A stretch of 64,000 bases of DNA from the NCBI RefSeq assembly GCF_020991365.1, contig NZ_JAJLRA010000003.1, positions 372,001 to 436,000 of the forward strand, in the 5' to 3' direction. A program made the translations under genes and the position numbers. This stretch comes from Streptacidiphilus sp. ASG 303 (GTDB lineage Bacteria; Actinomycetota; Actinomycetes; Streptomycetales; Streptomycetaceae). Below, piece by piece: positions 40,370-57,531 of the stretch (its first letter is position 1; every line of letters begins with the position of its first letter). Under the pieces are notes generated by a model, which was not told the DNA's origin, searched no databases, and worked only from the letters and a program-made list of their open reading frames with translations.

Positions 40370-41797
40370 TCAGCGGGCGGCGCCGCCCGCGCGGCCCGAC
40401 AGGTCGACCGCCGCGGCCACCCGGGAGCCGATGTCCTCGGCGTAGGCGAGGTCGGCCCGGTCGAAGCGGTGGCGCCCCGGGCCGCGCAGGAAGGTCAGCA
40501 CGCCGACCGTGCGGCCCCGGCTGCGCAGCGCCGTGCACAGGCCGTGGACGGTGGTGGACGGCCAGCGCCGCTCCACCGCCCAGGCCGCGTCGCCGCCGCC
40601 GGTGACGCAGACCGTGCCGCCGCGCTCCAGCGCCCGCAGCGCCGGGTGCAGCTCGCCGTAGCGGACGGGGATGCCCGACGGCTCCGGACCCGGCTCCTGC
40701 GCCGCCGTGCCGACCGGGGAGGCGGCGGCCCGCACCAGGCCGCCGGTGTCGCCGTCGGCCGCCAGGTCGAGGTAGGCGTGGTCGGCGAAGCCCGCGAGGA
40801 CGAAGTCCAGGTAGCCGACCGCCCCCTCCATCGGGTCCTCGCACTCGGCGGCGGCGATCCCGGCGCGGCGCAGCTGGGTGGCGCGGAAGCGGAGCACCGC
40901 CCCGCCCTGCTCGGTCTGCTCCCGCTCGGTGACGTCCTCGAAGAGCCACGCCACGCCGAGCGGCACCGGCTCCTCGCCGAGGGGCGAGCCCAGCCGGACG
41001 AACTGGCTGCGCCAGCAGCGGCGGCGGCGCTCCTCGTCGCCGCGCAGGGCGCCCCACAGCTTGACGCCGCCGAGCGGCTCCCCGGTGGCCAGGACGTGCT
41101 GGAGCGCCGACTCCAGCTCCTCCACGCCGTCGCGCAGCACCTCGCCCAGGGGGTGGCCGAGCAGGTCGGCGCGCCGGACGCCGAGGGTGCGGGCGGCGGA
41201 GGCGCCGACCGCGGCGGGCCGCAGGTCGGCGTCGACCAGGACCACGGAGAGCGGGGCCTCCTCGAAGAGGGCCTCGGACAGCCCGAGCGAGCGCTCCAGG
41301 TCGATCTGGGAGCGGGCCTCGGAGAAGGCGAAGTAGAGGCCGTCCGGCGCGTCCCCGCCGTCCTCGGCGGCGACGGGGCTGACCTGGGCGCGGACCAGGA
41401 CGCGGCGGCCGTCACGGGTGAGCAGGGCGAACTCCTGCACCCGGCGGCGGCCCTCGGCGGCTGCGTCCCGCAGCAGCGCCCCGACCGTGTCGGCGTCGGC
41501 CTCGCGGACCGCCCACCCGGCCAGGCCCGGCCTGCCGACCGCCTCCGCGGCGGGCCAGCCGAGGAGGCGCTCGGCCTCGCGGTTCCAGTGGGTGACGGTG
41601 CCGTCGCCGGCCAGGGCGCAGAGCCCGACCTCCATGGCCTGCATGAGGGCGGAGAGCAGGTCGCGGTCGGCCGGACGGGCGGGGCCGGCCCCGTCGGGGC
41701 CTGCCTCCTCCGGGCCGGGCGGCGGCGCGGTTCCGGCCTTGCGGAGCCGCGAGCCGGGGCCCGTCGGTCCGGGTGCCGTCGGTCGCTGTGCGGTCAT
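40370..41797 (-). CDS. PAS/GAF-domain sensory protein
   Basis: A 475-aa soluble protein. Two PAS domains are visible: about 48-165 (LMQAMEVGLCALAGDGTVTHWN and LLGWPAAEAVGRP) and about 175-300 (EEAPLSVVLVDADLRPAAVG to VAWLFEDVTERE). A GAF-like C-terminal region follows (about 310-465; LCTALRSRGRTVGVLTFLRG). There is no kinase, phosphatase or cyclase domain, so it is a sensor without output, or works through a partner. Relatives with a C-terminal PP2C phosphatase are common in Streptomyces. ATG 41797 has a perfect GGAGGTGG site; the upstream ATG is less likely. Divergent from the SLATT-like gene. Confidence 0.88.
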   Translation of the reverse strand: MTAQRPTAPGPTGPGSRLRKAGTAPPPGPEEAGPDGAGPARPADRDLLSALMQAMEVGLCALAGDGTVTHWNREAERLLGWPAAEAVGRPGLAGWAVREADADTVGALLRDAAAEGRRRVQEFALLTRDGRRVLVRAQVSPVAAEDGGDAPDGLYFAFSEARSQIDLERSLGLSEALFEEAPLSVVLVDADLRPAAVGASAARTLGVRRADLLGHPLGEVLRDGVEELESALQHVLATGEPLGGVKLWGALRGDEERRRRCWRSQFVRLGSPLGEEPVPLGVAWLFEDVTEREQTEQGGAVLRFRATQLRRAGIAAAECEDPMEGAVGYLDFVLAGFADHAYLDLAADGDTGGLVRAAASPVGTAAQEPGPEPSGIPVRYGELHPALRALERGGTVCVTGGGDAAWAVERRWPSTTVHGLCTALRSRGRTVGVLTFLRGPGRHRFDRADLAYAEDIGSRVAAAVDLSGRAGGAAR

Positions 41798-41964
41798 GGT
41801 GCCCACCTCCCCCACACGCACGCCCATTCAACCTGCGGAATCCCGGCCGCACACCCGGTTCCGCGGATTCCCCGGCCGAATCGGCCCGTCCGTGTGCTGT
41901 GCGGCCGGCCCCGCGGCCCCCATACTGGCCGCGGTGGAGGGCCGGCGACGGGGGGTTGGGTTCC

Positions 41965-42870
41965 ATGGCGGCGGAGTCGCGTCGGACGGTTCAGGAGTAC
42001 GAGCTGCTCCCGGAGCTCTTCTGGGTGGCGGACGGGGTGTCCCTGCAGGGGCAGCAGAAGACCGTCGTGATGTCGCGCCTGCAACTGGCGCTGCTGACCG
42101 CGGCGGCGGTGGCGGGGTCCGCCGACCAGCCGTGGATCGCGGGCGTGTCGGCGGGGCTCTTCTTCCTCGCGATGTGCGCCTCGGGGCTGGCGAACCTGCA
42201 CAACCCGCAGGGCCTGTGGTACGAGGGCCGGGCGGTCGCGGAGTCGGTGAAGACCCTGGCGTGGAAGTACGCCGTCCGGGCGGACACGTACACGCCGCCG
42301 CCGACCGCCGTGGAGGACGCCGAGTCGCTGTACCGGCTGCAGCTGACCGGGGTGCTGCACGCCTTCCGGCGCAGCCGGGCGGTGCCGCCGGGCGTCCGGA
42401 CGGACGTCACCGAGGGGATGCAGCGGCTGCGCGGCGCCCCGCTGGCCGTCCGCCGGGACGTCTACCTGCGCGAACGGGTGCAGCAGCAGCACGACTGGTA
42501 CGCGTCGCGGGCGCACCGCTGCGAGCGGGCGGCGCGGTTCACCGGCTTCCTGTCGGTGGCCCTGCCGCTGCTGGGCGTCCTGCTGTCGGTGCCGCGGATC
42601 GAGGGCGACTTCAGCTACGACATCCTCGGGGCGGTCGCCGCGCTGGCGGCGTCGTCGACGGCGTGGGCGCAGCTGCGGCAGTACCGGCCGCTGGCCTCCG
42701 CCTACCGGGTGGCCGCCGACGAGCTGGAGCTGATCCGGGCGCAGCTGGCCGCGATGGACCTGTCGGCGCCGGACGCGGAGGAGCGGTGGGCGCGGCTGGC
42801 CCGCGACGCGGAGGAGGCGGTGTCGCGGGAGCACACGACCTGGCAGGCGCGGCGCGAGGTGCGCGGCTGA
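41965..42870 (+). CDS. SLATT-like (DUF4231) membrane protein
   Basis: A 301-aa protein. Two close hydrophobic segments near residues 34-75, the motif LWYEGRAVAESVKTLAWKY near 88-106, and a second hydrophobic pair near 190-235 fit the DUF4231/SLATT group. SLATT proteins are proposed membrane pore-type effectors in nucleotide-second-messenger conflict systems. Here there is no nucleotidyltransferase (SMODS/CD-NTase) or SLOG gene beside it, so a lone or housekeeping role is equally possible. ATG 41965 lies after GGGGGTTGGG. A PAS gene diverges from it and an alpha/beta hydrolase follows 240 nt later on the same strand. Confidence 0.72.
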   Translation: MAAESRRTVQEYELLPELFWVADGVSLQGQQKTVVMSRLQLALLTAAAVAGSADQPWIAGVSAGLFFLAMCASGLANLHNPQGLWYEGRAVAESVKTLAWKYAVRADTYTPPPTAVEDAESLYRLQLTGVLHAFRRSRAVPPGVRTDVTEGMQRLRGAPLAVRRDVYLRERVQQQHDWYASRAHRCERAARFTGFLSVALPLLGVLLSVPRIEGDFSYDILGAVAALAASSTAWAQLRQYRPLASAYRVAADELELIRAQLAAMDLSAPDAEERWARLARDAEEAVSREHTTWQARREVRG

Positions 42871-43110: not shown

Positions 43111-44004
43111 GTGCTGGTACTGGTACGGACCCCCGACGGCAGGGCGCTGGCGGCGGAGAGCCGGGGCGATCCGGAGGGCAGTCCGGTGTTCCTGCTGCAC
43201 GGCACGCCGGGCAGCAGGATGGGCCCGGCACCGCGCGGCGCCGTCCTGCACCGGCTGGGCGTGCGGCTGGTCGTCTTCGACCGGCCGGGGTACGGCGACT
43301 CGGACCGGCTGCCCGGACGGCGGGTGGCCGACGCCGCGGCGGACGTGGCCGCCGTCGCCGACGCCCTGGGGCTGGAGCGCTTCTCGGTCGTGGGCCGCTC
43401 GGGCGGGGGCCCCCACGCCCTGGCCTGCGCGGCGCTGCTGCCCGACCGGGTGACCCGGGCGGGGGTGCTGGTGAGCCTGGCGCCGCGGGTGGCGCCGGGC
43501 CTCGACTGGTTCGCGGGGATGGCCGAGTCCAACGTCCGGGAGTACAGCGCGGCAGCGGAGAGCGCCGTGCGGCTGGCGAGCAGCCTGGAGCAGCGCTCCC
43601 GGCTGATCCGCGCCGACCCGACGGTGCTGGTCGCCGCCCTGCGCACCGAGCTGCCCGAGTCCGACCTGCGGGTCGTCGCGGACGCCGGCATCCGGGCGAT
43701 GCTGGTGCGCAACTACGCGGAGGCGCTGCGGGAGTCCGCGGACGGCTGGATCGACGACGCGCTGGCCTTCAGCGGCGACTGGGGGTTCGACCCGGGGGCG
43801 ATCCGGGTGCCGGTGCTGCTCTGGCACGGCCAGGACGACGTCTTCTCGCCGGCGGCGCACACCCGCTGGCTCGCGGAGCGCATCCCGGGCTCGACCGTGG
43901 AGATCGAGCCCGGCGCGGCCCACTTCGGCGCCCTGCCGGTCCTGCCGCGGATCCTGGGCTGGGCGACCGGCCAGGGCGCCGCCCGCCCGGAGGCGGCCCG
44001 CTGA
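43111..44004 (+). CDS. Alpha/beta hydrolase
   Basis: A 297-aa alpha/beta-hydrolase-fold protein. The oxyanion HG block is LLHGTPGSRMGP. The nucleophile elbow is GRSGGGPHAL (G-x-S-x-G, Ser near residue 103), the acid is probably the first Asp of WHGQDDVF near 236, and the catalytic His is in GAAHFG near 272. The GTPGSR loop and RPGYGDSD are frequent in this subgroup of small esterases and epoxide hydrolase-like proteins. The start is GTG 43111, with GGGGAGG upstream. Substrate unknown. It faces the FxSxx locus across a terminator. Confidence 0.9.
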   Translation: MLVLVRTPDGRALAAESRGDPEGSPVFLLHGTPGSRMGPAPRGAVLHRLGVRLVVFDRPGYGDSDRLPGRRVADAAADVAAVADALGLERFSVVGRSGGGPHALACAALLPDRVTRAGVLVSLAPRVAPGLDWFAGMAESNVREYSAAAESAVRLASSLEQRSRLIRADPTVLVAALRTELPESDLRVVADAGIRAMLVRNYAEALRESADGWIDDALAFSGDWGFDPGAIRVPVLLWHGQDDVFSPAAHTRWLAERIPGSTVEIEPGAAHFGALPVLPRILGWATGQGAARPEAAR

Positions 44005-44046: not shown

Positions 44047-47000
44047 CTACATCGGCTGGGGCTCCAGGTCGCTCCAGGTCCGCTGCCAGGTGCGGACGGC
44101 CAGCACCAGCGGGTGGTCCTCGTCCAGGAGGGAGAGGAACTCCTGCAGCGCACGGGAGCGCAGCTCCTGCGCCTCGGCCTGGCGCCCGGCGGCGCGCAGG
44201 GTGACGGCGAGGTTGGCGCGGCAGGCCACGGTGCCGGGGTGGGCGGGGCCGTGCAGGGCCTCCAGGCCCGCCAGCGCGGTCCGTTCCAGCTGCTCGGCCT
44301 CCTGCAGCCGGCCGGCCTCGGCCCGGAAGCCTCCCAGGTTCGCCATCGCCCGGAGGGTGAACGGGTGCTCGTCGTCGAGCACCGCCCGCAGCCCTTCCAG
44401 AGCCTCCTCGGCGAGCCGGACGGCGCGGTCCTGGACCCCGGCGCCCCGCAGGTGGACGGCCAGTCCGGCGGAGCAGGCCAGGGTGAAGGGGTGCCGTTCG
44501 CCCATGGTCCGCCGGTACCCCTGGAGGGCCTCGGCGGCCAGGTCCCGGCCGCGTGCCGCGTCGCCGGCCGCGGCGAGGTCGGCGGCGAGGGTGAGGGCGC
44601 AGGCGAGGGCGTCGGGCGTGTCGGCGCCGTACCGCTTGAGGTACAGGTCGTAGGTCTCGCTGCTGAGGCGCAGGGCCTCCTCGGTGCGGCCCATGCGGCG
44701 CAGCGAGACGGCGAGGCTGGTGGCGGCGCGCAGCGTCTCGGGGTAGTCCTCCCCCAGGACCTCCCGGCACCGGGGCACGGTCTCCTGCAGCAGGTCCAGC
44801 GCGCCGCCCCAGTCGCCGGTGTCGCGCAGGTCCCGCGCCAGGTGGGACATGGAGTTGAAGGTGTAGTGGTGGTCCGGGCCCAGCACCTCGCGGCGGCCGT
44901 CGAGGGTGTCCCGGTCGATGTCGGTGGCCTCGGCGGACAGGCCTGCCAGCCGGAGGTCGACCGCGAGGTTGTTGGCGGCTGCGAGGGTGCGGTGGTGGCG
45001 GTCGCCGAGCAGGTCCTTGAACTGCCGGTGGATGTCCCGGTCGCGCTCCAGGGCGTCGTCGAAGCGGCCCAGCGCCCGCAGGTCGGCCGCGAGGCTGCCG
45101 GCGGTGGTGAGGGCGTCGGCGTTCTTCGGCGAGAGCACCGCCTGCTGGCGCTCCAGGGTGGCCTGGTCGAGGTCGAGGGCCGCCTGGTAGTCGCCGCGGC
45201 TGCGGAGCACGTTGGCGATGTGGAAGCGCAGGCCGAGGGTCTGCACGTCCTCGACGCCGAGCTTCTCGGTCCAGACCTCGTCGAGGCGGGTGCCCAGGGC
45301 GAGGGCGGGCTCGTACTCGCCGCGCTTCCACAGGTACCGCACCCGGTCGATCAGCAGCTGGCGGGTGGCCGGCTCGTCGCAGATCTCGGCGCCGGAGGGC
45401 CGCAGGTGGGGCCAGATCTCCTCGAAGCGCTCCCAGTTGCGCGGGTCGTCGGTCTCGCCGCGCTCGGGGCGGGCGTCGACGAGGATGCGGTGCACCTCGT
45501 GCATCGCCTGCTCCTGCTCGGCGGGGGTCATCTTCGACCGGATGACGGCCTGCACCAGGCGGTGGATCTGGATGCCCTTGCCCTGGCCGCCCTTGGCCAG
45601 CGCGTAGCGGTTGATGGCCTGGATGGAGCGGCCCAGCAGGTAGCCGGCCTGGGGGTCGTGGTCGTAGGGGACGAGCGCCTCGCGCATCCTGCGGCTGTGG
45701 ACGAGGTTGAGCGCGATGGGCTCCGGGGCGAAGAAGGCGCAGAGCTGGAGGAGCCGCACCGCTGCGGGGTTCTCGTCCTGCAGGCGGGCGATGGAGACGT
45801 TCCAGGTGGCCGCGACCGGCTCGGGGTAGTGGGGGGAGGTGGCGACGCCCAGGGCCTCCTGCGGCTCCTGCCGGAGCTGGGCGACGTAGCTCTCCACCGG
45901 GGTTCCGGTCTCGGCCAGCCAGGCGCCCGCGACCTCGACGGCCAGCGGCAGGTCGCCGACGGCGGCCGCCACCTCGTCGGCCTCGTCCTCGGTGAGGGAG
46001 GGCGAGCGGCGGCGCAGGTGCTCGACGGACTCCCGGCGGTCGAAGACGTCCACCGGCAGCGCCTCCGCGTGGGCGGACCAGGCGTGGTTGCGGGAGGTGA
46101 CCAGGACGTGGCCGGAGCCGCCGGGGAAGAACCGCTTGACCTCGACGGGGTCGTCGGCGTTGTCGAAGACCAGCAGCCACCGGTCGGTGACCGTGCCGCG
46201 CCGCAGCGCCTGCCGGGCGGCCTCGGCGGCCTCCGAGACGTTGTCCCCGATCCGCAGCTTCAGCTCGGCGGCCAGGTCGGCCACGGCCGGGGAGGTCCGG
46301 GCCAGCTCGGCCGCCAGGTCGGCGAGGGCGGTGACGACCTGGTCGCCCTGCTCGGCGTTGATCCACCAGACCAGGTCGTAGTCGGCCATGAAGCGGTGCG
46401 CGTACTCCTGGACGACCTGGGTCTTGCCGACGCCGCCGAGGCCGTAGAGGGTCTGCGGGGTGGGGAGGACGGCGGTCATGCCCGCCCCCAGCTGGTTGCG
46501 GAGCCGCTCCAGCACCTGGGCGCGGCCGGTGAAGGCCGGGTTGCGCGGCGGGACGTTCCACACCGCGGGCCTGGTGCCCGGGAAGCGGGGCCCGCCCTCG
46601 GCCGCGGGGGCCACCGCGGTCTCGGGGCGGCCGAGGGCGCGCAGCACGGCCGACCGGGCCGGGCCCTCGGCGAGGTGCAGCAGGTCCACGGCCACGGGCA
46701 GGCGCAGGCCGGCGGCGTGCCGGACGTCGCCGACGCGCACGGGCACCAGCTGGCGGCGGATGCCGGACGGGTCGCGGCCCACGACCGTGCTCATCAGGTC
46801 GCGGGCCTGCGGGTTGCGCAGGTAGGCGGCGGAGAGCAGCACGACGGTGCGGCGGGCTGCCTCGGCGCCGGTCTCGGGCTGCCGTCCGGCCGCGGGCTCG
46901 GCGCCGATGTCCCGCACCAGCACCTGGAACCCGGCGGCGGTGAGCACGGACTCGATCCAGTCCGCCCACATGCGGTCCTCGGCGGCGTAGGAGAGGACGA

Positions 47001-48003
47001 GTTCGCTGGGCCCGGCCGGGCGGCGGCGGGTGTAGAGGTCCACGGTGCGCAGCCGCTCCGCCTCGGGCACCGGCGGCAGCGCCGTCACCCGGCCCTCGGT
47101 GACCACCGAGGTGAGGCGCTCGCAGGAGGCGAGCATGGAGGAGGACAGGCCCGGGGTGTCGCCGAAGGTCGCGAGGATCTCCTCGTACGCGTAGAAGGGC
47201 CGGTACGGCACCTCGACCGCGCCCCAGTAGGACGCCAGCTCCTCCTCGCGCAGGCCGGCGGGGAGCCCGTCGAAGCGCAGCCGGGCCAGGGCGCGGCCGG
47301 CGTCGGCCTTCTCCTTCTCCCCCTCGTCGACGCGCATGGGGACCGGCAGGATGCGGATGCTGCGGTTGCGGTAGCGCTCGTGGATGTGCTGGGCGACGGA
47401 GGCGGCGCCGTCGATGGACTGGTCGCTGAGGGTGAAGCAGACGACCAGGACGTCCGGCATCTCCACGGTGCAGATGTCGGCGATGTCGCTGAGGCCGGTG
47501 CGGCTGTCGATCAGGATCCAGTCGTAGTGCTGCCGCATGTCCTCGCGCAGCGCCGCGAAGAACCGGCCGCCGGCGAAGCGGTCGTAGAAGTCGTCCCAGT
47601 AGAGGCTGCCCAGCGTGGCGGAGTAGTCGCGGTTCTGACGGCCCGCCGAGAGGAAGTCGAGGCTGCCGCCGCCGGGGAACTCCCACTGCAGGGAGAGGGC
47701 GTGCCGGCGGGCCCGGGCGTACTGGCGGTGCCAGTCCGGCGCCCGGGGGACGTTGCGCAGCGCCTGCTCCCGGTACTCGGTGATCAGGTCGATCATGCCG
47801 GGGCTGGTGCCCAGCAGGGCCGGGTCGAGGAAGGGGTGGAAGAAGCGGTGCAGGCCTGGGGCCTCCAGGTCCCAGTCGACGGTCAGCACGCGCATGCCGT
47901 TGGCGGCCAGGATCCAGGCGGTGTTGGCGAGGGTCATGGTGCGCCCGGTGCCGCCCTTGTACGAGTAGAACGTGACCACGCGCCCGTCGCGGCTCTCGGT
48001 CAT
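44047..48003 (-). CDS. fxsT: FxSxx-COOH system ParA/TIR/NB-ARC/TPR protein
   Basis: A 1318-aa multidomain protein. Residues 8-300 are a ParA/MinD-like ATPase with deviant Walker A KGGTGRT (16-22) and DWDLEAPGLHRFF. A TIR-like domain follows near 333-460 (SELVLSYAAEDRMWADWIES). The NB-ARC/STAND ATPase lies near 500-800, with Walker A YGLGGVGKTQ near 519 and Walker B LLVFDNADD. From about 900 to the end there are tandem TPR units of 42 residues (LGPDHHYTF, LGEDYPETL, LDDEHPFTL). The TPR array type is the one found in FxSxx-COOH loci. ATG 48003 overlaps the stop of fxsC by 4 nt (ATGA). It could sense the peptide or a signal and oligomerise like an NLR; this is inference. Confidence 0.9.
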   Translation of the reverse strand: MTESRDGRVVTFYSYKGGTGRTMTLANTAWILAANGMRVLTVDWDLEAPGLHRFFHPFLDPALLGTSPGMIDLITEYREQALRNVPRAPDWHRQYARARRHALSLQWEFPGGGSLDFLSAGRQNRDYSATLGSLYWDDFYDRFAGGRFFAALREDMRQHYDWILIDSRTGLSDIADICTVEMPDVLVVCFTLSDQSIDGAASVAQHIHERYRNRSIRILPVPMRVDEGEKEKADAGRALARLRFDGLPAGLREEELASYWGAVEVPYRPFYAYEEILATFGDTPGLSSSMLASCERLTSVVTEGRVTALPPVPEAERLRTVDLYTRRRPAGPSELVLSYAAEDRMWADWIESVLTAAGFQVLVRDIGAEPAAGRQPETGAEAARRTVVLLSAAYLRNPQARDLMSTVVGRDPSGIRRQLVPVRVGDVRHAAGLRLPVAVDLLHLAEGPARSAVLRALGRPETAVAPAAEGGPRFPGTRPAVWNVPPRNPAFTGRAQVLERLRNQLGAGMTAVLPTPQTLYGLGGVGKTQVVQEYAHRFMADYDLVWWINAEQGDQVVTALADLAAELARTSPAVADLAAELKLRIGDNVSEAAEAARQALRRGTVTDRWLLVFDNADDPVEVKRFFPGGSGHVLVTSRNHAWSAHAEALPVDVFDRRESVEHLRRRSPSLTEDEADEVAAAVGDLPLAVEVAGAWLAETGTPVESYVAQLRQEPQEALGVATSPHYPEPVAATWNVSIARLQDENPAAVRLLQLCAFFAPEPIALNLVHSRRMREALVPYDHDPQAGYLLGRSIQAINRYALAKGGQGKGIQIHRLVQAVIRSKMTPAEQEQAMHEVHRILVDARPERGETDDPRNWERFEEIWPHLRPSGAEICDEPATRQLLIDRVRYLWKRGEYEPALALGTRLDEVWTEKLGVEDVQTLGLRFHIANVLRSRGDYQAALDLDQATLERQQAVLSPKNADALTTAGSLAADLRALGRFDDALERDRDIHRQFKDLLGDRHHRTLAAANNLAVDLRLAGLSAEATDIDRDTLDGRREVLGPDHHYTFNSMSHLARDLRDTGDWGGALDLLQETVPRCREVLGEDYPETLRAATSLAVSLRRMGRTEEALRLSSETYDLYLKRYGADTPDALACALTLAADLAAAGDAARGRDLAAEALQGYRRTMGERHPFTLACSAGLAVHLRGAGVQDRAVRLAEEALEGLRAVLDDEHPFTLRAMANLGGFRAEAGRLQEAEQLERTALAGLEALHGPAHPGTVACRANLAVTLRAAGRQAEAQELRSRALQEFLSLLDEDHPLVLAVRTWQRTWSDLEPQPM

Positions 48004-49364
48004 GCTGCTCCTCCGCCAATGTCGGTGTAGTCGTCGTCGGGCCGGTGGCCGGGCTGGGGGTCGGACGGCCCGTCCGGTCTCCCGGGCCCGCGGCCGGGCG
48101 GGGGGTCGGGGACGCCGGGGGCGAGGGGCCCCATGAGCCGGGGCAGGCGCACGGGCTCCCCCTCCGGGGGATGGGTCACGGCGTGCCGCAGGTACTGCTG
48201 GGAGGCCCGGCGGACCGCGGTGGGCAGGTCGTCGTAGAAGACGTCCAGGTTGGGCAGCAGGGTGCGGGTGAGGCGGTAGGAGGTGGGGCCCTCGTGGAGC
48301 TTGCGGTGGAGCGCCTCCTCGGTGGCGGCCTGGAGCTCCTCCTCGCGCCGGGCGGCCCCGGCGTGGTCGCGGTTCCACGGCAGCATGATGCTGATCCAGG
48401 GGCGCGGCACGGCGTCGAGGCGCTGCAGCAGGCCGCGGTGGCGCGGGTCGGTGAGCGCCCAGCGGTCGACCAGGAGCAGCTCGGGGCCGGTCGGGGGGCC
48501 GGGGGCCAGCATCCGCTCGGCCTCGTCCTCGAAGGCGCCCACCCGCACCCGGTAGTCCAGGCTGCGCGCCAGGTCGGCGACGTGGTCGGCGAGGGCGCGC
48601 TTGGAGTGGGGGTGGTAGGGGTTCCAGTCGACGGGCGAGGGGCCGTAGCAGTCGGCGCAGCGGGCGCCGGTGCGGTCCCGGCGGCTGCCCGCGAGGACGA
48701 CCACGCGGAGCTCCTGCACGCCGTCGGCGGGTTCGAAGGCGCTGGGCACGTCGCGGTAGTCGGCGCGCCGGCCCGGCGGTATCCGGGTCTCGTGGGCGAC
48801 GGTGACGATCCGCTTGGCGAGGTGGTAGACCACCCGTTCGTAGTCGGAGTGCAGGTAGCCGAGGCGGCTGAGGCCGTACAGCCCCTCGGAGGCGTAGTCG
48901 GGGCCGAGGTCGGCCTGGCTGAACTGGAGGCTCTCGGCGGGCCCCGGCAGGGACTCGGGCGGCACCGGGACCCATAACGCCGGCACCATGCCCTCCATGC
49001 GGCGCGCCCCCGCCGCCCGGTGGTAGGCGGTCCGCCGGGAGAAGAAGAACCACTCCTTGCCGCACTGCTCGCTGCTGAAGTAGCGGGGCGAGTACAGGGG
49101 TACGAAGACCCGGCAGCGCGACAGCGCGTCGGACAGGCTCGCCGGCCAGCCCTCGCCGGGGGTGAGCCGGCGGTCCATGAACCCCGCCGCCGCCCCCCTG
49201 GGCAGGTCGGTCATCTGCATGACATCGGCGCACAGGTCCTCGAAGAAGCGGTCGACCAGGAGGTCGGGGTCCCCGGACCGGCTGTCGCTGGGCGGCGTGT
49301 GCGCGTAGCTGAGGAAGAAGTAGGGTTCGGAGCCGCCCCCGGAGGCTCCTCCTGGTCTCTGCAC
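48000..49364 (-). CDS. fxsC: FxsC-like protein with TIR-type N-terminus
   Basis: A 454-aa protein. The N-terminal 150 residues read as a TIR domain (EPYFFLSYAHTPPSD, GEGWPASLSDALSRCRVFV, YFSSEQCGKEWFFF), followed by a long domain of the FxsC type (LRVVVLAGSRRDR near 220; WNPYHPHSKRALADHVADLA; WISIMLPWNRDH near 325) and a Pro-rich tail. FxsC members occur with FxsA and FxsB in actinobacterial FxSxx-COOH loci; their role is unknown. The start is GTG 49364. A -10-like TACACT (49402-49397) lies about 33 nt upstream, so fxsC-fxsT may have its own promoter besides read-through from fxsB. Coupled to fxsT by overlap. Confidence 0.87.
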   Translation of the reverse strand: MQRPGGASGGGSEPYFFLSYAHTPPSDSRSGDPDLLVDRFFEDLCADVMQMTDLPRGAAAGFMDRRLTPGEGWPASLSDALSRCRVFVPLYSPRYFSSEQCGKEWFFFSRRTAYHRAAGARRMEGMVPALWVPVPPESLPGPAESLQFSQADLGPDYASEGLYGLSRLGYLHSDYERVVYHLAKRIVTVAHETRIPPGRRADYRDVPSAFEPADGVQELRVVVLAGSRRDRTGARCADCYGPSPVDWNPYHPHSKRALADHVADLARSLDYRVRVGAFEDEAERMLAPGPPTGPELLLVDRWALTDPRHRGLLQRLDAVPRPWISIMLPWNRDHAGAARREEELQAATEEALHRKLHEGPTSYRLTRTLLPNLDVFYDDLPTAVRRASQQYLRHAVTHPPEGEPVRLPRLMGPLAPGVPDPPPGRGPGRPDGPSDPQPGHRPDDDYTDIGGGAA

Positions 49365-49396
49365 GTGTGCCCCCGCCCCGCAGATGAAGGAGCATC

Positions 49397-49402
49397 AGTG
49401 TA
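49397..49402 (-). promoter_or_regulatory. -10-like hexamer before fxsC
   Basis: TACACT on the minus strand, with TTCCGC 18 nt further upstream as a weak -35. The predicted leader to GTG 49364 is about 25 nt. Confidence 0.35.
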
Positions 49403-49480
49403 GGAAGCGACGGACCGTCAGCGGAACACCGCGTGCGGACTCCGTCCGCTTTCCGCCGTCCGCCCTCCCCCGCCTGCTTT

Positions 49481-49541
49481 CCGCCGGTCGCCCTCCGCCG
49501 GTCGCCCTCCGCCGGCCGGGACGGCACCGGCCGGGACGGCA
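49481..49541. repeat. Short tandem repeats between AAC(3) and fxsC
   Basis: Two exact 14-bp copies (CCGCCGGTCGCCCT, 49481-49494 and 49495-49508) followed by two exact 15-bp copies (CCGGCCGGGACGGCA, 49512-49526 and 49527-49541). Confidence 0.8.
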
Positions 49542-49572
49542 CCCGCCCCGGCCCGCGGTCCGGTGCGGCCGG

Positions 49573-50367
49573 TCAGACCCCCGCGCGGCGCTGCACGGCC
49601 ACGGCGGCGTCCACCGCCTCCCGGACGGGGAGCAGCCGGCAGGGGGCGGACCCGAGGGTCCCGACGGGCACCCGGACCAGCCGCCGCACCTCGCGGTCGA
49701 GCGCGGCGAGGTGTCCGTCGTCCAGGGCGGGCGCCGCGAAGCGGCGCCACTCCCGGCCGCCGTCCGCGCCCCGCACCACGCACGCGTACTCCCGCGGCGG
49801 GAACCGGCCGGTCCGGTAGTCCGCCAGGTGGTACACGGTGCACCGCTCGATCGGGCCCACCACCAGGGCCTGCCCGCCGGCCCGGTACAGGGCGCCCAGC
49901 GGCGACTCCTCGCCGAGGTGGCTCTCCAGCGGGTGGCGGCGCACGAGGTCCGCGGCGGCCGGGCCGACGGCCGCGAAGGAGGTCTGCGGGTGGCGGCTGC
50001 GCAGCGCGCCCGGCGTGGTGCGGATCTGCTCGGCCAGGCGGCCCATGGTGGGGGACGCCGGGGTCGCGGCCGGGTCGAAGGGGGGCATGGCGGCGAGGTG
50101 GGCGGCCAGGCCGGCCTCGTCCATGCCGCGCACCCGCTCGCGGTGGAGCGGGGAGGTGGTGGAGTTCTCCGGGGTGGCGGTGTAGCCGACCAGCGTCCCG
50201 CCGGGGCCGAGGGCGGTGCGCAGCGCCGCCACCACCGCGGCGGCCCCGCCCGCCACCGGTCCGACGCTGCGCAGCGACGCCTGCACCAGCAGGACGCCTC
50301 CCGGCCGGACGCCGAGCGCCGCCAGGTCCCGGGCGAGTCCGGCCGCGGTGTGCGGCGGAGCCTGCAC
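49573..50367 (-). CDS. AAC(3)-type N-acetyltransferase of the FxSxx locus
   Basis: A 264-aa member of the aminoglycoside 3-N-acetyltransferase (antibiotic_NAT) fold. It has GGVLLVQASLRSVGPVAGG near 22-40, GTLVGYTATPENST, RSRHPQTSFAAVGPAA near 122-137, and HLGEESPLGALY with the CoA/His region TVYHLADYRTG. It starts at GTG 50367, 7 nt after fxsB, so it belongs to the RiPP operon. Within such a locus the likely substrate is the modified peptide amino terminus or a side-chain amine, using acetyl-CoA, rather than an antibiotic. This is inference from position. A gap of about 200 nt with short repeats separates it from fxsC. Confidence 0.88.
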   Translation of the reverse strand: MQAPPHTAAGLARDLAALGVRPGGVLLVQASLRSVGPVAGGAAAVVAALRTALGPGGTLVGYTATPENSTTSPLHRERVRGMDEAGLAAHLAAMPPFDPAATPASPTMGRLAEQIRTTPGALRSRHPQTSFAAVGPAAADLVRRHPLESHLGEESPLGALYRAGGQALVVGPIERCTVYHLADYRTGRFPPREYACVVRGADGGREWRRFAAPALDDGHLAALDREVRRLVRVPVGTLGSAPCRLLPVREAVDAAVAVQRRAGV

Positions 50368-50374
50368 GGCGGGC

Positions 50375-52795
50375 TCAGCTCCCGGCCGCGGCACGGGCCT
50401 GCCATGCCTCCCGGTGGCGCTGTGCGGCCAGCCGCGCGCCGCGGACGGCCTCGGGGGCGACCGGCTCCTCCAGCCAGGGGGCGACCGTCGCCCGCATGCC
50501 CTCGGCGAACCGCATGCCCAGCGGGGTGAGCGACCCGGACCCGGCCAGCACCTCCACGGCCTCCGCGGTGTGCCGGCGCCAGCGGGCGAAGTGCACCTCG
50601 GCCTCGGCGGCGGCCGCACCCCGCGCCGTGTGCCGCCGCACCCGCCAGAAGTCGGCCACCGCGATGTGGGCGTACGTCCCCTGCAGCAGGCCCTCCAGCG
50701 GGCGGGGGTCCTCCCGCCACGGCGCGTAGTGGAGCCGGGTGTCCTCCGGGTCGTGGAGGTCGGCGAGGTCCAGGACGGCGCCGAGCTTCACGTGCTGGAA
50801 CTCGTGGACCAGCAGCAGTGCCAGCACGTCCGCCCGGCCGGGCCGGGCGATGCCGACCGCGCCGAACGCCTGCCGCGCGGCGGCGCTGACGTCCTGCCCG
50901 GCGGGCGCCTCCAGCGGGGTGACGGTGGACAGGCCGGCGGACAGGCCCGGCGCGTACCGGGGCAGTTCACGGCCGATCAGCTCCCAGGCCTCGGCGAGTC
51001 CCGCGCGCCAGGCCTCGGCCTCGCCGTCCGGCAGCCGCCCGGCCACCGGCCACTGGTGGCCGTCGCGGTACGGGTCGGTGTCCTCCAGCGCCACCGTCCA
51101 CCCGGGGGCGGCCAGGCGCCGCACGGGGTGCCAGCGGTCGCCCGGCGGGTCGTCGCGGCCGATCCGCAGCACGGCGCCGCCCACCGCCACGGTGAAGCCG
51201 TCCGGGCCGCCGGACACCACGGCCTCGCCGCCGTCGCCGCCCACGAGCACCCTGCCCAGGGTGGGCAGCCGCACCGCGCCGCCGCGCACCGGCACCCGGA
51301 CCGGCTCGTCACGGCCCGCACGCAGGGCGGCCGCGGCCGCGACCTCCGCCAGGCCGCCCGCGTCGGCCCCGGCCGCGCCCTCCAGGCAGCGCACCGCCCA
51401 GGCCCGGGTGTAGGGGTGGGCCAGCACCGCGTCCAGCGCGTCCGGCGCGTCGGAGTCGAGGGCGGTGAGCAGCTCCCAGGCGGCCGCGGCGGGGGCGGAC
51501 CGGTCGGCGGACAGGTCCGCCGACCGCTGCCGGACGGCGGCGAGCAGCTCGCGCACGATGCCCAGCTGAGCCCGCGCCAGGGAGCGGACCGCCTCGGCGC
51601 CGCCGAAGCCGGCGGCCAGCTCGTCCAGGTGCGCCTCCGGCAGCACCGGCGGGCCGGGCTGCGGGGGCGGCGGGACGGGGGCGGCGGCGAGGCGGTCGCG
51701 GATTCCGGTGATCAGCTGCATGAGGTCCCCGCAGTAGACGGAGGGGTTGGCGAAGCCGCTGCCGGCGCGGTACCGGTGGGCGTACAGGCCGCCGCCGCAG
51801 GAGCGGACGACCGGGCAGGCCCGGCACTCCGCGGCCAGCCCGTCGAGGCCCTGCGTCCGGGCCAGCATGCCCGGGTGGCGGGAGGCCTCGTCGAAGGTGT
51901 GGGAGAAGACGTCGAGTCCGGTGGCGGGCGCGCCGTCGAAGGCGGTCTTGAGGGAGTCGGCCTGCTCCAGCGTGCCGTCGGTCTCGACCACGACCAGGTC
52001 GGAGGGTTCCAGGCCGAGGGACTCGGTGAGGCTGCTGCCGCCGCGCAGGGTGCGCTCCACGGAGTCGAAGACCCGCACGGGGAAGGGCCGCCCCTGCCCG
52101 TGCCAGCGGTCGAGGACCGCCAGCAGCCAGTCGGCGTAGGGGGTGCCGCCGCCGGGGCGCGGCGGGGGCTGCTCCCAGGTGGCGTGCGGCAGCAGGTAGT
52201 CCACGCGGGGCGGGTCGAGCTCCGCCAGCGCGTCGTGGACGGCGGCGGGGTCGTTGCGGACGTCGACGGTGCAGAGCAGGCCCGCGAAGAGGTGCCGGTA
52301 CCGGGGGCGGCGGAGCAGCCCGACGGCCCGCAGGACGTGGGGGTGGCTGCTGCGGCCGTCGGCGAAGCGGCGGTGGCGGTCGTTGGCCGCCCGGTCGCCG
52401 TCCAGCGAGATCCCGACCTTGACGCCGAACTCCGCGAACAGGTCGAGGAAGCGCTCGTCCAGCAGGACGCCGTTGGTGTGGATGCGCAGGTCGAGGGCGC
52501 AGACGCCGTCGAGGGCGCGGTGCAGCTCCTCGGCCGCCCGGCGCAGGCGGGCCGGGCCGGCGAGCAGCGGCTCGCCACCGTGCAGCACGACATGGACCGC
52601 CGCCGTCCCGTGCGCGGCGGCGTGCTCCGCGATGCGGTCGGCGGTGCGCACCAGCACCTCGTCGGGGACCGCCCGGGGGCGGCCCCGCCAGCTGGTGTCC
52701 GCGTGCTCGTACACGTAGCAGTGGTCGCACGCGAGGTCGCATCGGCTGTGCACCTTCAGCACGAACTGCCTGAGGGGCACGGGGGATCGGTCCAT
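50375..52795 (-). CDS. fxsB: FxsB radical SAM/SPASM cyclophane maturase fused to HExxH domain
   Basis: An 806-aa maturase. Radical SAM Cys residues are C19-x3-C23-x2-C26 in HSRCDLACDHCYVYEH, which binds the SAM-cleaving 4Fe-4S cluster. GGEPLLAGP and the GISLDGDRAANDRHR segment follow. SPASM-type Cys residues lie near 325-355 (CRACPVVRSCGGG, SVYCGDL) for auxiliary clusters. The C-terminal half (about 400-806) carries H664-E-F-Q-H668, the HExxH domain of proposed peptide-modifying (2-oxoglutarate-type beta-hydroxylase) enzymes. FxsB enzymes form cyclophane cross-links on aromatic residues near the FxSxx end. ATG 52795 is 21 nt after fxsA; GGAGG is about 17 nt away, which is longer than optimal and may keep enzyme levels below substrate. 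Confidence 0.93.
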   Translation of the reverse strand: MDRSPVPLRQFVLKVHSRCDLACDHCYVYEHADTSWRGRPRAVPDEVLVRTADRIAEHAAAHGTAAVHVVLHGGEPLLAGPARLRRAAEELHRALDGVCALDLRIHTNGVLLDERFLDLFAEFGVKVGISLDGDRAANDRHRRFADGRSSHPHVLRAVGLLRRPRYRHLFAGLLCTVDVRNDPAAVHDALAELDPPRVDYLLPHATWEQPPPRPGGGTPYADWLLAVLDRWHGQGRPFPVRVFDSVERTLRGGSSLTESLGLEPSDLVVVETDGTLEQADSLKTAFDGAPATGLDVFSHTFDEASRHPGMLARTQGLDGLAAECRACPVVRSCGGGLYAHRYRAGSGFANPSVYCGDLMQLITGIRDRLAAAPVPPPPQPGPPVLPEAHLDELAAGFGGAEAVRSLARAQLGIVRELLAAVRQRSADLSADRSAPAAAAWELLTALDSDAPDALDAVLAHPYTRAWAVRCLEGAAGADAGGLAEVAAAAALRAGRDEPVRVPVRGGAVRLPTLGRVLVGGDGGEAVVSGGPDGFTVAVGGAVLRIGRDDPPGDRWHPVRRLAAPGWTVALEDTDPYRDGHQWPVAGRLPDGEAEAWRAGLAEAWELIGRELPRYAPGLSAGLSTVTPLEAPAGQDVSAAARQAFGAVGIARPGRADVLALLLVHEFQHVKLGAVLDLADLHDPEDTRLHYAPWREDPRPLEGLLQGTYAHIAVADFWRVRRHTARGAAAAEAEVHFARWRRHTAEAVEVLAGSGSLTPLGMRFAEGMRATVAPWLEEPVAPEAVRGARLAAQRHREAWQARAAAGS

Positions 52796-52816
52796 GTCGG
52801 CTGGTCGGGCGCCTCC

Positions 52817-52999
52817 TCAGATCGAGGAGTTGAAGGCGGCCACGGCGACCGGGCGGGGGGCACCGCTGCCGGGGACGATCCGCTTCAGGGTCTCCGAGTC
52901 GGTCCGGTGGGCAAGAGAGGCGAGCGGGATGCGTGGGGACGGCGCGTCCCCACGGGGCGCGAGGGCGGGCGCAGGCGCGGGTGCGACGGAAGTGTTCAA
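52817..52999 (-). CDS. fxsA: FxSxx-COOH ribosomal peptide precursor
   Basis: A 60-aa precursor. A Pro/Ala-rich leader (1-22) is followed by IPLASLAHRTDSETLKRIVP, a recognition-type helix, and a C-terminal core ending VAAFNSSI. The last five residues F-N-S-S-I fit F-x-S-x-x-COOH exactly; the Phe is the expected site of radical cross-linking by FxsB. The start is TTG 52999, strongly supported by AAGGGGAT 4-5 nt before it. It is the first gene of the system and too short for many gene finders. A 12-bp palindrome and a -10 element lie about 120-150 nt upstream. Confidence 0.93.
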   Translation of the reverse strand: MNTSVAPAPAPALAPRGDAPSPRIPLASLAHRTDSETLKRIVPGSGAPRPVAVAAFNSSI

Positions 53000-53965: not shown

Positions 53966-54715
53966 CTAGGGGCAGAGCCGCTCGACGGTCCAGCCGGTGG
54001 GCGCCTCCGGGTCGGCGCGGTAGCGGAGCCGGTCGTGCAGCCGGTTCAGCCGCCCCTGCCAGAACTCGACGGTCTCCGGGTGCAGCCGGAAGCCGCCCCA
54101 GAACGGCGGCACCGGCACCCCCTCGCCCTCCGGGTAGCGGGCGGCCAGCTCGGCGTAGCGCTCCTCCAGCTCCTGCCGCGAGGCGACGGTCCGGGACTGC
54201 TCGCTGGCCCAGGCGCCCAGCTGGGAGCCGTGCGGGCGGGTGCGGAAGTAGGCGGCGGTCTCGTCGCGGCCGACCCGCTCGACGGAGCCGGTGACGATCA
54301 CCTGGCGGGCGACGGGGTGCCAGGGGAAGAGCAGCGACGCGTGCGGGTTGGCGTCCAGCTCGGCGGCCTTGCGGGAGCCGTAGTTGGTGAAGAAGACGAA
54401 CCCGCGGGCGTCGTAGCCCTTGAGCAGGACGGTCCGGGAGCTGGGCCGCCCGGCGGCGTCGGCGGTGGAGAGCACCATCGCGTTGGGCTCGTGGACCCCG
54501 GCCGCCCCGGCCTCGGCGAACCAGCGGCCGAACTGGGTGACCGGGTCGTGGGCCAGTTCGTGCTCGGCGAGGCCTGCGGCGCTGTACTGGCGGCGCATGG
54601 AGGCCGGGTCCGGCTCGGGGAGGCGTCCCGCCCCGCCGGGTTCGGGCGGGGAGGCCGGCGGCTCGGGGACGGGCGTACGACGGGCTGCGGGGCGGGCGCT
54701 GTCCGGGAGATGCAC
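53966..54715 (-). CDS. pdxH: Pyridoxamine 5'-phosphate oxidase
   Basis: A 249-aa FMN enzyme. The conserved core starts at residue 40 ([19 protein letters not shown]) and contains [24 protein letters not shown] (FMN-binding), [17 protein letters not shown], and the C-terminal [15 protein letters not shown]...WTVERLCP signature. It oxidises pyridoxine/pyridoxamine phosphate to pyridoxal phosphate, the cofactor of SerC two genes away. GTG 54715 was chosen because GGGAG stands 4-5 nt upstream; the Pro-rich first 39 residues may be dispensable and the ATG at residue 40 is an alternative start. Divergent from the citrate synthase gene. Confidence 0.93.
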
Positions 54716-54880
54716 GCTCCCATCATCGCGTACGGCGCCCCTCCGCGGGGCGTCCGCCGCCCGGGCGATGTGCCGTGGGTCACGCCGGACGGAGCGGTCC
54801 CGGGGGGCCTCCGGGGCGGTCGCGCCCCTGGTCGGGGCGGTCCGGGGGCGGCGCGACCAGCGGTGTCCCCCGCCGGTCCG

Positions 54881-54926
54881 GCGGGGAGGCCGGGGCGCGG
54901 CGGGCGTCGCGCCCCGGCCTCCCCGC
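54881..54926. promoter_or_regulatory. Long perfect hairpin between divergent pdxH and citrate synthase genes
   Basis: Perfect 19-bp arms (54881-54899 with 54908-54926) and an 8-nt loop. Because the flanking genes diverge, it is not an ordinary end-of-gene terminator; it may insulate the two promoters or be an operator. The rest of 54716-55105 shows only the citrate synthase promoter. Confidence 0.55.
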
Positions 54927-54969
54927 CACCGCGGCGGAGCACGGCGCGCTGCACGCGGTGCCCGGGAAT

Positions 54970-54999
54970 CTGGCACCGCGTGCCATGCGGGCGTACGCT
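54970..54999 (+). promoter_or_regulatory. Promoter of the citrate synthase gene
   Basis: CTGGCA (54970-54975), 18-nt spacer, TACGCT (54994-54999). The predicted start near 55006 gives a leader of about 100 nt before ATG 55106. Confidence 0.5.
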
Positions 55000-55105
55000 G
55001 CGCATCACCCCGCACAGCACGGACAGCACTGCCACCCCAGCCAGACCGCGAGGCGTACCAAGCCGTCAGGTCGTCCGGACCAACCAGATCAAGAGGAGCC
55101 GCCCG

Positions 55106-56206
55106 ATGTCCGATTTCGTACCCGGACTCGAAGGTGTCGTCGCGTTCGAGACCGAGATCGCCGAGCCCGACAAGGAAGGCGGCTCGCTGCGCTACCGCGG
55201 CGTGGACATCGAGGACCTGGTCGGACACGTCTCGTTCGGGCACGTCTGGGGCCTGCTGGTGGACGGCAAGTTCAACCCGGGCCTGCCGCCGGCGGAGCCG
55301 TTCCCGATCCCGGTCCACTCCGGCGACATCCGGGTCGACGTGCAGTCCGCGCTCGCCATGCTGGCCCCGGTGTGGGGCCTCAAACCGCTCCTGGACATCG
55401 ACGCCGAGGAGGCCCGCGACGACCTCGCGCGCGCCGCGGTGATGGCGCTGTCGTACGTCGCCCAGTCGGCGCGCGGCCAGGGCCTGCCGATGGTGCCGCA
55501 GCGGGAGATCGACAAGGCCGAGACGATCGTCGAGCGGTTCATGATCCGCTGGCGCGGCGAGCCCGACCCCAAGCACGTCAAGGCCGTCGACGCCTACTGG
55601 ACGTCGGCCGCCGAGCACGGCATGAACGCCTCCACCTTCACCGCCCGCGTCATCGCCTCCACCGGCGCCGACGTCGCCGCCGCGCTCTCCGGCGCGGTGG
55701 GCGCCATGTCCGGCCCGCTGCACGGCGGCGCGCCCTCCCGCGTCCTCGGCATGATCGAGGAGATCGAGCGGACCGGCGACGCGGTCGGCTACGTGAAGAA
55801 CGCCCTGGACAAGGGCGAGCGCCTGATGGGCTTCGGCCACCGCGTGTACCGCGCCGAGGACCCGCGCGCCGCCGTGCTCCGCCGCACCGCCAAGGAGCTG
55901 GACGCGCCCCGCTTCGAGGTCGCCGAGGCGCTGGAGAAGGCCGCCCTGGAGGAGCTGCACAACCGCCGCCCCGACCGGGTGCTCGCCACCAACGTCGAGT
56001 TCTGGGCCGCGATCATGCTGGACTTCGCCGAGGTCCCGGCGCACATGTTCACGTCGATGTTCACCTGCGCCCGCACCGCCGGCTGGTCGGCGCACATCCT
56101 GGAGCAGAAGCGCACCGGCCGCCTCGTGCGCCCCTCCGCCCGCTACGTGGGACCCGGCCCGCGCAGCCCGCGCGAGGTCGAGGGCTACGGCGACATCGCC
56201 CGCTGA
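55106..56206 (+). CDS. Citrate synthase (type II-like, citrate synthase 2)
   Basis: A 366-aa citrate synthase, the short Gram-positive type. Substrate/catalytic blocks are [14 protein letters not shown] (catalytic His, near 210), [14 protein letters not shown] (second His, near 245), and [17 protein letters not shown] with the acidic/Arg region after it. It condenses oxaloacetate with acetyl-CoA in the TCA cycle; 2-methylcitrate activity is possible in this group. ATG 55106 follows AAGAGGAGCC. Streptomycetes usually have further citrate synthases, so this may be a secondary one. Ends at a strong terminator before serC. Confidence 0.95.
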
Positions 56207-56212
56207 CGCCAG

Positions 56213-57531
<1,319 letters not shown>

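Follow-up and report, generated by a model that had tools for sequence, protein, structure and literature searches.

The window, that is, the whole 64,000-nt stretch of DNA analysed, contains an Fxs locus (the FxSxx peptide gene set), an identification to which we assign a probability of about 0.97. The locus represents a known kind in its regular form, the standard actinomycete set in which a small cross-linked peptide is combined with immune-receptor-like proteins. Our comparison adds two points. The firmest is a convergent alpha/beta-hydrolase gene that appears to be a regular partner of the locus; the most useful for chemists is the prediction that Val-Ala-Ala, directly before the cross-linked end of the peptide, is the substrate of the oxygenase half of FxsB. 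Both are new relative to the literature searched, and the authors of PDB entries 22nu and 22ob may know the chemistry. The features, ordered from fxsA to the SLATT gene, are as follows.

52817 to 52999, minus strand: fxsA, open reading frame with a TTG start for a 60-aa precursor ending V-A-A-F-N-S-S-I (TIGR04268, 25.8 bits)
52835 to 52843, minus strand: codons of V53-A54-A55, which covary with HExxH integrity and are the predicted substrate of the FxsB HExxH half
52820 to 52834, minus strand: codons of F56-N57-S58-S59-I60, read from the sequence; predicted cyclophane end (F56 to S58), the cross-link being projected from MscB (PMC11002830)
50375 to 52795, minus strand: fxsB, 806-aa radical SAM/SPASM enzyme fused to an alphaKG-HExxH domain (TIGR04269, TIGR04267, PDB 9gm3 and 22nu)
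52718 to 52741, minus strand: codons of C19-x3-C23-x2-C26, radical SAM cluster motif, read from the sequence
50792 to 50806, minus strand: codons of H664-E-F-Q-H668, HExxH motif, read from the sequence with numbering from the structure alignment
49573 to 50394, minus strand: AAC(3)-fold acyltransferase gene, GTG start (PF02522, 208 bits; closest PDB entry FrbF, 3sma)
48000 to 49364, minus strand: fxsC, TIR domain (residues about 12-193) and C-terminal domain (NF040588, TIGR04276; model and structure match to TIR NADases)
49053 to 49055, minus strand: codon of FxsC Glu104, at the putative position of the TIR catalytic glutamate (invariant, 70/70; assigned from TIR motifs)
44047 to 48003, minus strand: fxsT, ParA-like ATPase/TIR-like/NB-ARC/TPR protein (NF040586, NF047398; Pfam TIR_2, NB-ARC, TPR)
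43111 to 44004, plus strand: alpha/beta-hydrolase gene, proposed partner by linkage, tail-to-tail with fxsT across a 42-nt gap; Ser97-Asp243-His271
41773 to 42870, plus strand: gene for a two-TM protein with SLATT_3 and SLATT_1 (Pfam, 132 and 120 bits) and a probable start at 41965; on weaker evidence, a further possible partner

The genes fxsA, fxsB, AAC(3)-fold, fxsC and fxsT form one operon-like run on the minus strand. A preliminary description of this DNA had listed these five genes on a single strand, and both the open reading frames and the family scores agree with it: FxsB, FxsC and FxsT exceed their NCBI cut-offs, the AAC fold is recognised by PF02522, and FxsA falls just below its threshold. 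Of the two 4-nt overlaps that it had reported, only one exists (ATGA, fxsC/fxsT); fxsA and fxsB are separated by 21 nt, fxsB and the AAC(3)-fold gene overlap by 20 nt, and a gap of about 200 nt precedes fxsC. The description did not mention the intact HExxH domain in FxsB, the convergent hydrolase or the adjoining SLATT gene, and its word "complete" was too strong because the hydrolase partner had been overlooked.

FxsA scores 25.8 bits (E 9e-6) against TIGR04268, 2.2 bits short of the curated cut-off of 28, which is an annotation threshold and not a trait. It ends in FNSSI, 21 nt upstream of fxsB. Relatives were collected in a scan of bacterial and archaeal genomes, and the best 80 of 377 were taken as loci; those designated L004-L083 were recovered partly through an HExxH-region pattern, which biases them towards intact forms. 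In 78 of these 80 loci (best 80 of 377) FxsB has an F-x-S-x-x reading frame upstream on its own strand, so the FxsA assignment is credible despite its score. The genome to which the window belongs encodes a single FxsB above the cut-off, and also a second FxsT-family match besides the FxsT of the locus.

By its domain content FxsB is bifunctional, combining a radical SAM/SPASM half with an alphaKG-HExxH half. It scores 580 bits (cut-off 370) against TIGR04269, which we take to be the InterPro entry of MscB, and this score together with the CxxxCxxC motif places it in the FxsB family of cyclophane maturases. The second half reaches 176 bits against TIGR04267, the alphaKG-HExxH beta-hydroxylase model (cut-off 40), with its HEFQH motif intact. 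NF040587, which describes FxsBH with an inactivated extension, gives 217 bits, below its cut-off of 225, and the intact motif likewise places the protein outside that class. The radical SAM domain of ChlB (PDB 9gm3) aligns to residues 8-370 with 250 bits, and the HExxH domain of PDB 22nu to residues 379-783 with 356 bits.

As MscB, an FxsB-type enzyme, forms Phe-Ser cyclophanes (PMC11002830), a Phe-Ser cross-link made by this FxsB is well founded by homology. The MscB triceptide systems described in that source resemble the present one in combining a radical SAM/SPASM enzyme with a precursor that carries a three-residue Phe-x-Ser motif; here, however, the enzyme has an intact HExxH domain fused to it, and the locus adds the AAC, FxsC, FxsT and the hydrolase. 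The two-domain plan is common to FxsB and ChlB, a fused radical SAM/alphaKG-HExxH enzyme, whereas the ChlB-type hydroxylation reported in PMC12636437 is on Asp and His and the predicted target here is V-A-A. The preliminary description had pictured an aromatic-bridged peptide, perhaps acetylated and hydroxylated. Its cross-link is grounded in published relatives, and the intact alphaKG-HExxH domain of FxsB makes hydroxylation plausible; acetylation has the linked AAC(3)-fold gene as its sole basis, with the substrate a guess. A literature search on FxsA with FxsB, FxSxx and related names returned no experimental paper in the collection searched. At a few loci (L170 and L171, also L040, L043, L050, L060 and L061) a short unfused FxsB and a separate HEFLH-type gene lie just upstream of the fused FxsB; an FxSxx precursor for the short copy was not found at these loci.

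The prediction for the HExxH half comes from a comparison of 251 distinct fused FxsB proteins, in 166 of which the motif is intact, in 84 lost and in one truncated. These gave 232 FxsB-precursor pairs (154 with intact and 78 with lost HExxH); left out were the FxsB proteins for which no precursor matched (12 intact, 6 lost), the truncated protein and all unfused FxsB. The constancy of Ser and Phe in these rows is by construction, since the search pattern required the Ser and limited the Phe position to F, Y or W. With Phe as position 0, Val at -3 is found in 140/154 pairs with intact HExxH vs 5/78 with lost HExxH, Ala at -2 in 136/154 vs 7/78, and Ala at -1 in 126/154 vs 1/78; the exact V-A-A occurs in 116/154 vs 0/78. 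Three further positions shift as well: Val at -5 (109/154 vs 16/78), Ser at X4 (110/154 vs 12/78) and Ile or Val at X5 (137/154 vs 13/78). Asn at X2 is independent of the HExxH state (86/154 vs 49/78), and X2 (N or Q) was rejected as the hydroxylation site on these counts. The AAC(3)-fold enzyme was also rejected as the driver of the motif, VAA being present both with and without AAC.

This covariation, which rests on about five independent losses, suggests that V-A-A is the substrate of the FxsB oxygenase half; it favours Val-Ala-Ala before Phe as the target, at the level of residues rather than of a particular atom. Because positions -5, X4 and X5 shift too, V-A-A may serve as an epitope for binding instead of being where the reaction takes place. 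One large clade could also have lost HExxH and the motif together by chance, so that shared ancestry would account for the pattern. In a tree built from the radical SAM half alone the HExxH state changes only five times, and none of the sign tests over the 4 supported independent pairs reaches 0.05. Same-way change over these 4 pairs amounts to 3.6 for Val(-3), 3.0 for Ala(-2), 3.0 for position -5 and 2.7 for Ala(-1), then 1.3 for X5 and 1.1 for X4, while X2, the control within the motif, does not follow (0.2 the same way, 0.8 the opposite way). Separate small losses behave alike. The clearest case is that of L188 and L196, which have lost HExxH in enzymes whose radical SAM domain is 87% identical to that of intact sisters; FNSSI is kept, and ..AVAA.. 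has become ..EVEKG.. and ..EVAGA.. in the precursors. Two further separate losses, L068 and L277, show the same behaviour, and we consider shared ancestry an unlikely explanation. The L277 locus (genome G584) also has a hydrolase fragment match nearby (residues 3-168) and is possibly decaying. A phylum-wide FxsB search yielded 11/396 genomes only and added no further HExxH losses, and HExxH-lost forms over the cut-off numbered 0/249 in the order of G396.

There are precedents for reading V53, A54 or A55 as concrete candidates for oxidation. In the pes clusters, Pro is present solely with the HExxH gene and is the residue hydroxylated (PMC13060819), and with PosC and PflC, as described in PMC12636437, Val is oxidised at the beta carbon and the backbone is broken at Ala. 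The 2020 survey reads the HExxH protein as a peptidase (PMC7159879), in which case the HExxH half would be a metallopeptidase that cuts at V-A-A and frees the C-terminal peptide. A zincin-like motif is there, the covariation fits a cleavage site equally well, and proteolysis without a leader is described for PflC (PMC12636437). On the other hand, TIGR04267, for alphaKG-HExxH beta-hydroxylases, is the best-matching curated model, and the relatives studied so far in the sources cited are oxygenases. We therefore regard a metallopeptidase as not likely and keep the oxygenase reading for the HExxH half.

The hydrolase gene converges on fxsT, the ends of the two genes being 42 nt apart. Among the best 80 of 377 relatives, 63 loci extend more than 1.2 kb beyond fxsT, and the hydrolase is convergent in 58 of them; where the distance between the hydrolase and fxsT stop codons was measured, it is below 190 nt in 47/54. 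In 200 genomes of the window's family the hydrolase (at least 300 bits) is found in 104/108 genomes with an FxsB of at least 500 bits vs 5/92 others, and in a second family in 28/29 genomes with fused FxsB, 14/53 with unfused FxsB alone and 1/68 without FxsB, tables from which no probability is claimed because related genomes are not independent. Two of the five hydrolase-positive others contain an FxsB broken by a contig end (G002) or split (G128). The window's family has 113 FxsB places, 2 of them with frames shorter than 640 aa. A hydrolase lies on the same contig within 60 kb at 103 of these places: downstream and convergent at 92, upstream on the same strand at 6, upstream on the opposite strand at 4 and downstream on the same strand at 1. 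In the second family, 45/51 hydrolase matches fall within 35 kb of an FxsB. Ser97, Asp243 and His271 of the hydrolase are invariant (60/60), and among solved structures the nearest to it is 9wlv, an entry labelled as an esterase (248 bits). In one region (L161, G004:C113) the hydrolase occurs in three copies, along with a second pair of FxsC and FxsT.

The AAC(3)-fold protein scores 208 bits against PF02522 (cut-off 25) and 161 bits against NF033082, the equivalog model for aminoglycoside 3-N-acetyltransferase, whose cut-off is 270; since that cut-off is missed, it is classed at the level of AAC(3)-fold, and the reading of the gene as aminoglycoside resistance was rejected on the same score. 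Its closest solved relative is FrbF (3sma, 241 bits), followed by YokD (222); AAC(3)-III gives 167. In the window's family the gene (at least 285 bits) occurs in 103/108 genomes with a high-scoring FxsB vs 5/92 others, and 105 of its 114 copies in the 200 genomes lie less than 20 kb from an FxsB. Among the best 80 of 377 relatives it stands between fxsB and fxsC in 37 loci and downstream on the other strand in 4; it was not found in 39 of the 80 loci as fetched, some of which end at contig ends. An Fxs-type copy is kept hundreds of kb or more from the fxs locus in G193, G187, G165, G143 and G075, and on another contig in G135 and G025.

In the window, a SLATT protein gene adjoins the hydrolase. 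A SLATT homologue is near 33 of the 80 loci (best 80 of 377), downstream of FxsB in 26 and upstream in 7, the latter in Streptosporangium-like genera with 30-34% identity. According to PMC7159879, SLATT proteins are predicted pores whose genes occur alongside those of TIR and other nucleotide effectors in conflict systems centred on GTPases. We treat the association as a lead because the downstream cases may reflect a chromosomal block. The AAC(3)-fold gene, the hydrolase and the SLATT gene could all be mere chromosomal neighbours, the first of them serving aminoglycoside resistance: Kitasatospora-type loci do have a common chromosomal block, and at L065 and L074 a SLATT gene is present where the hydrolase was not found. 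We judge this very unlikely, as the outer neighbours of the locus vary over at least five recurrent contexts and the hydrolase tracks the locus across them, in several arrangements and in the second family, while the AAC(3)-fold protein stays below the aminoglycoside cut-off and is nearer to FrbF and YokD than to AAC(3)-III.

On the receptor side, FxsC exceeds the cut-offs of NF040588 (227 bits, cut-off 130) and TIGR04276 (168 bits, cut-off 55), and FxsT that of NF040586 (1013 bits, cut-off 300), with 150 bits against NF047398. The FxsC model has a mean pLDDT of 79. Its TIR domain (residues about 12-193) gives best Z scores of 12.1 with SPARTA TIR-APAZ, 11.4 with AbTir and 10.7 with RUN1; with Foldseek alone, FxsC had no match that reached E 0.001. 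The C-terminal domain of FxsC matches response-regulator/flavodoxin-like structures at Z of about 8, which may be just a common arrangement. Glu104 of FxsC, which from the TIR motifs we take to be the known catalytic glutamate, is invariant (70/70). In the FxsT TIR domain the matching column, before the conserved Trp, contains Glu in 0/64 sequences, where an alignment shift is possible because the next column has Glu in 13/64; the NB-ARC P-loop GLGGVGK of FxsT is invariant (64/64). Since the glutamate is kept in FxsC and absent at the FxsT column, FxsC rather than FxsT looks like the TIR enzyme, as judged from alignments and a model; we know of no activity for FxsC. It resembles the TIR NADase effectors (SPARTA TIR-APAZ, AbTir, plant NLR TIRs) over model residues 13-192, at Z 10-12 and with the Glu position kept, and differs from them by a C-terminal domain of its own and by its STAND partner. 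PADLOC matches were limited to the PDC-M28B candidate model on the FxsT ParA region and a superfamily-level pVip match on FxsB.

Taken together, the evidence leans towards a role in intracellular conflict or signalling, as the 2020 survey proposed when it predicted that the FxSxx peptide works with the STAND protein (PMC7159879); FxsC and the SLATT gene give an immune-like role modest support. The standalone peptide-processing systems with an AP-ATPase that it describes comprise an FxSxx peptide, a radical SAM enzyme and a MinD/ParA-TIR-NB-ARC-TPR protein, as here, and section 24, on those systems, mentions neither a hydrolase nor an AAC(3)-fold enzyme nor a SLATT partner. At the present locus the genes, their domains, the catalytic motifs in intact form and the conservation of linkage are observations; the chemistry and the role built on them are predicted. 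The radical SAM half of FxsB would join the Phe56 ring to the Ser58 beta carbon, by analogy with its relatives, and the alphaKG-HExxH half would oxidise V53-A54-A55, either on a beta carbon or on an Ala alpha carbon with backbone cleavage; if the break falls at Ala, the ring peptide would be set free with no protease involved. Acylation of the peptide is the probable task of the AAC(3)-fold enzyme, and cutting or de-esterifying it that of the hydrolase, the substrate being a guess for both. The product could be kept inside the cell, where FxsT would read it as a ligand or status signal and control FxsC as a TIR NADase-like effector, perhaps together with a SLATT pore. For this whole chain, a modified peptide made and then coupled to an intracellular STAND/TIR device, we put the odds slightly below even. 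A more specific version seems improbable: fused FxsB would both close the Phe-Ser ring and, with no need of a protease, free a keto-acyl-capped cyclophane pentapeptide by Ala alpha-carbon oxidation in V-A-A, this would act as an intracellular licence or alarm ligand of FxsT, FxsT would gate the FxsC NADase, the nucleotide product would open the SLATT pore and the hydrolase would turn the ligand over. In that case the locus would be a bacterial NLR-like device with its own ribosomal, enzymatically made ligand.

The peptide could instead be exported as a RiPP antibiotic or signal, with FxsC and FxsT providing self-immunity. The precursor and maturases are of RiPP type, and an MFS transporter gene recurs in 22/81 loci. 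That gene, however, lies a median of about 10 kb upstream in a chromosomal block, and the fxs gene set itself has no transporter. The peptide end is also near-constant across genera, with FNSSI or FQSSV/I in 67/84 intact-HExxH rows of an early classification whose HExxH counts have since been superseded, unlike a diversifying bacteriocin. Export is thus doubtful, and we favour the intracellular STAND/TIR chain. The comparison recasts the purpose of the FxSxx peptide as concrete questions: which of V53, A54 and A55 is oxidised, whether that oxidation releases the peptide, how the hydrolase acts on it, and whether the STAND protein has FxsC as its enzyme arm. Should the immune-like reading be true, modified-peptide chemistry would be tied to TIR/STAND signalling in filamentous bacteria.

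Upstream of fxsA in the window, a minus-strand frame at 53969-56353 has a pdxH (pyridoxamine phosphate oxidase) domain, and many Kitasatospora-type fxs loci are flanked by pdxH, citrate synthase and aminotransferase genes.
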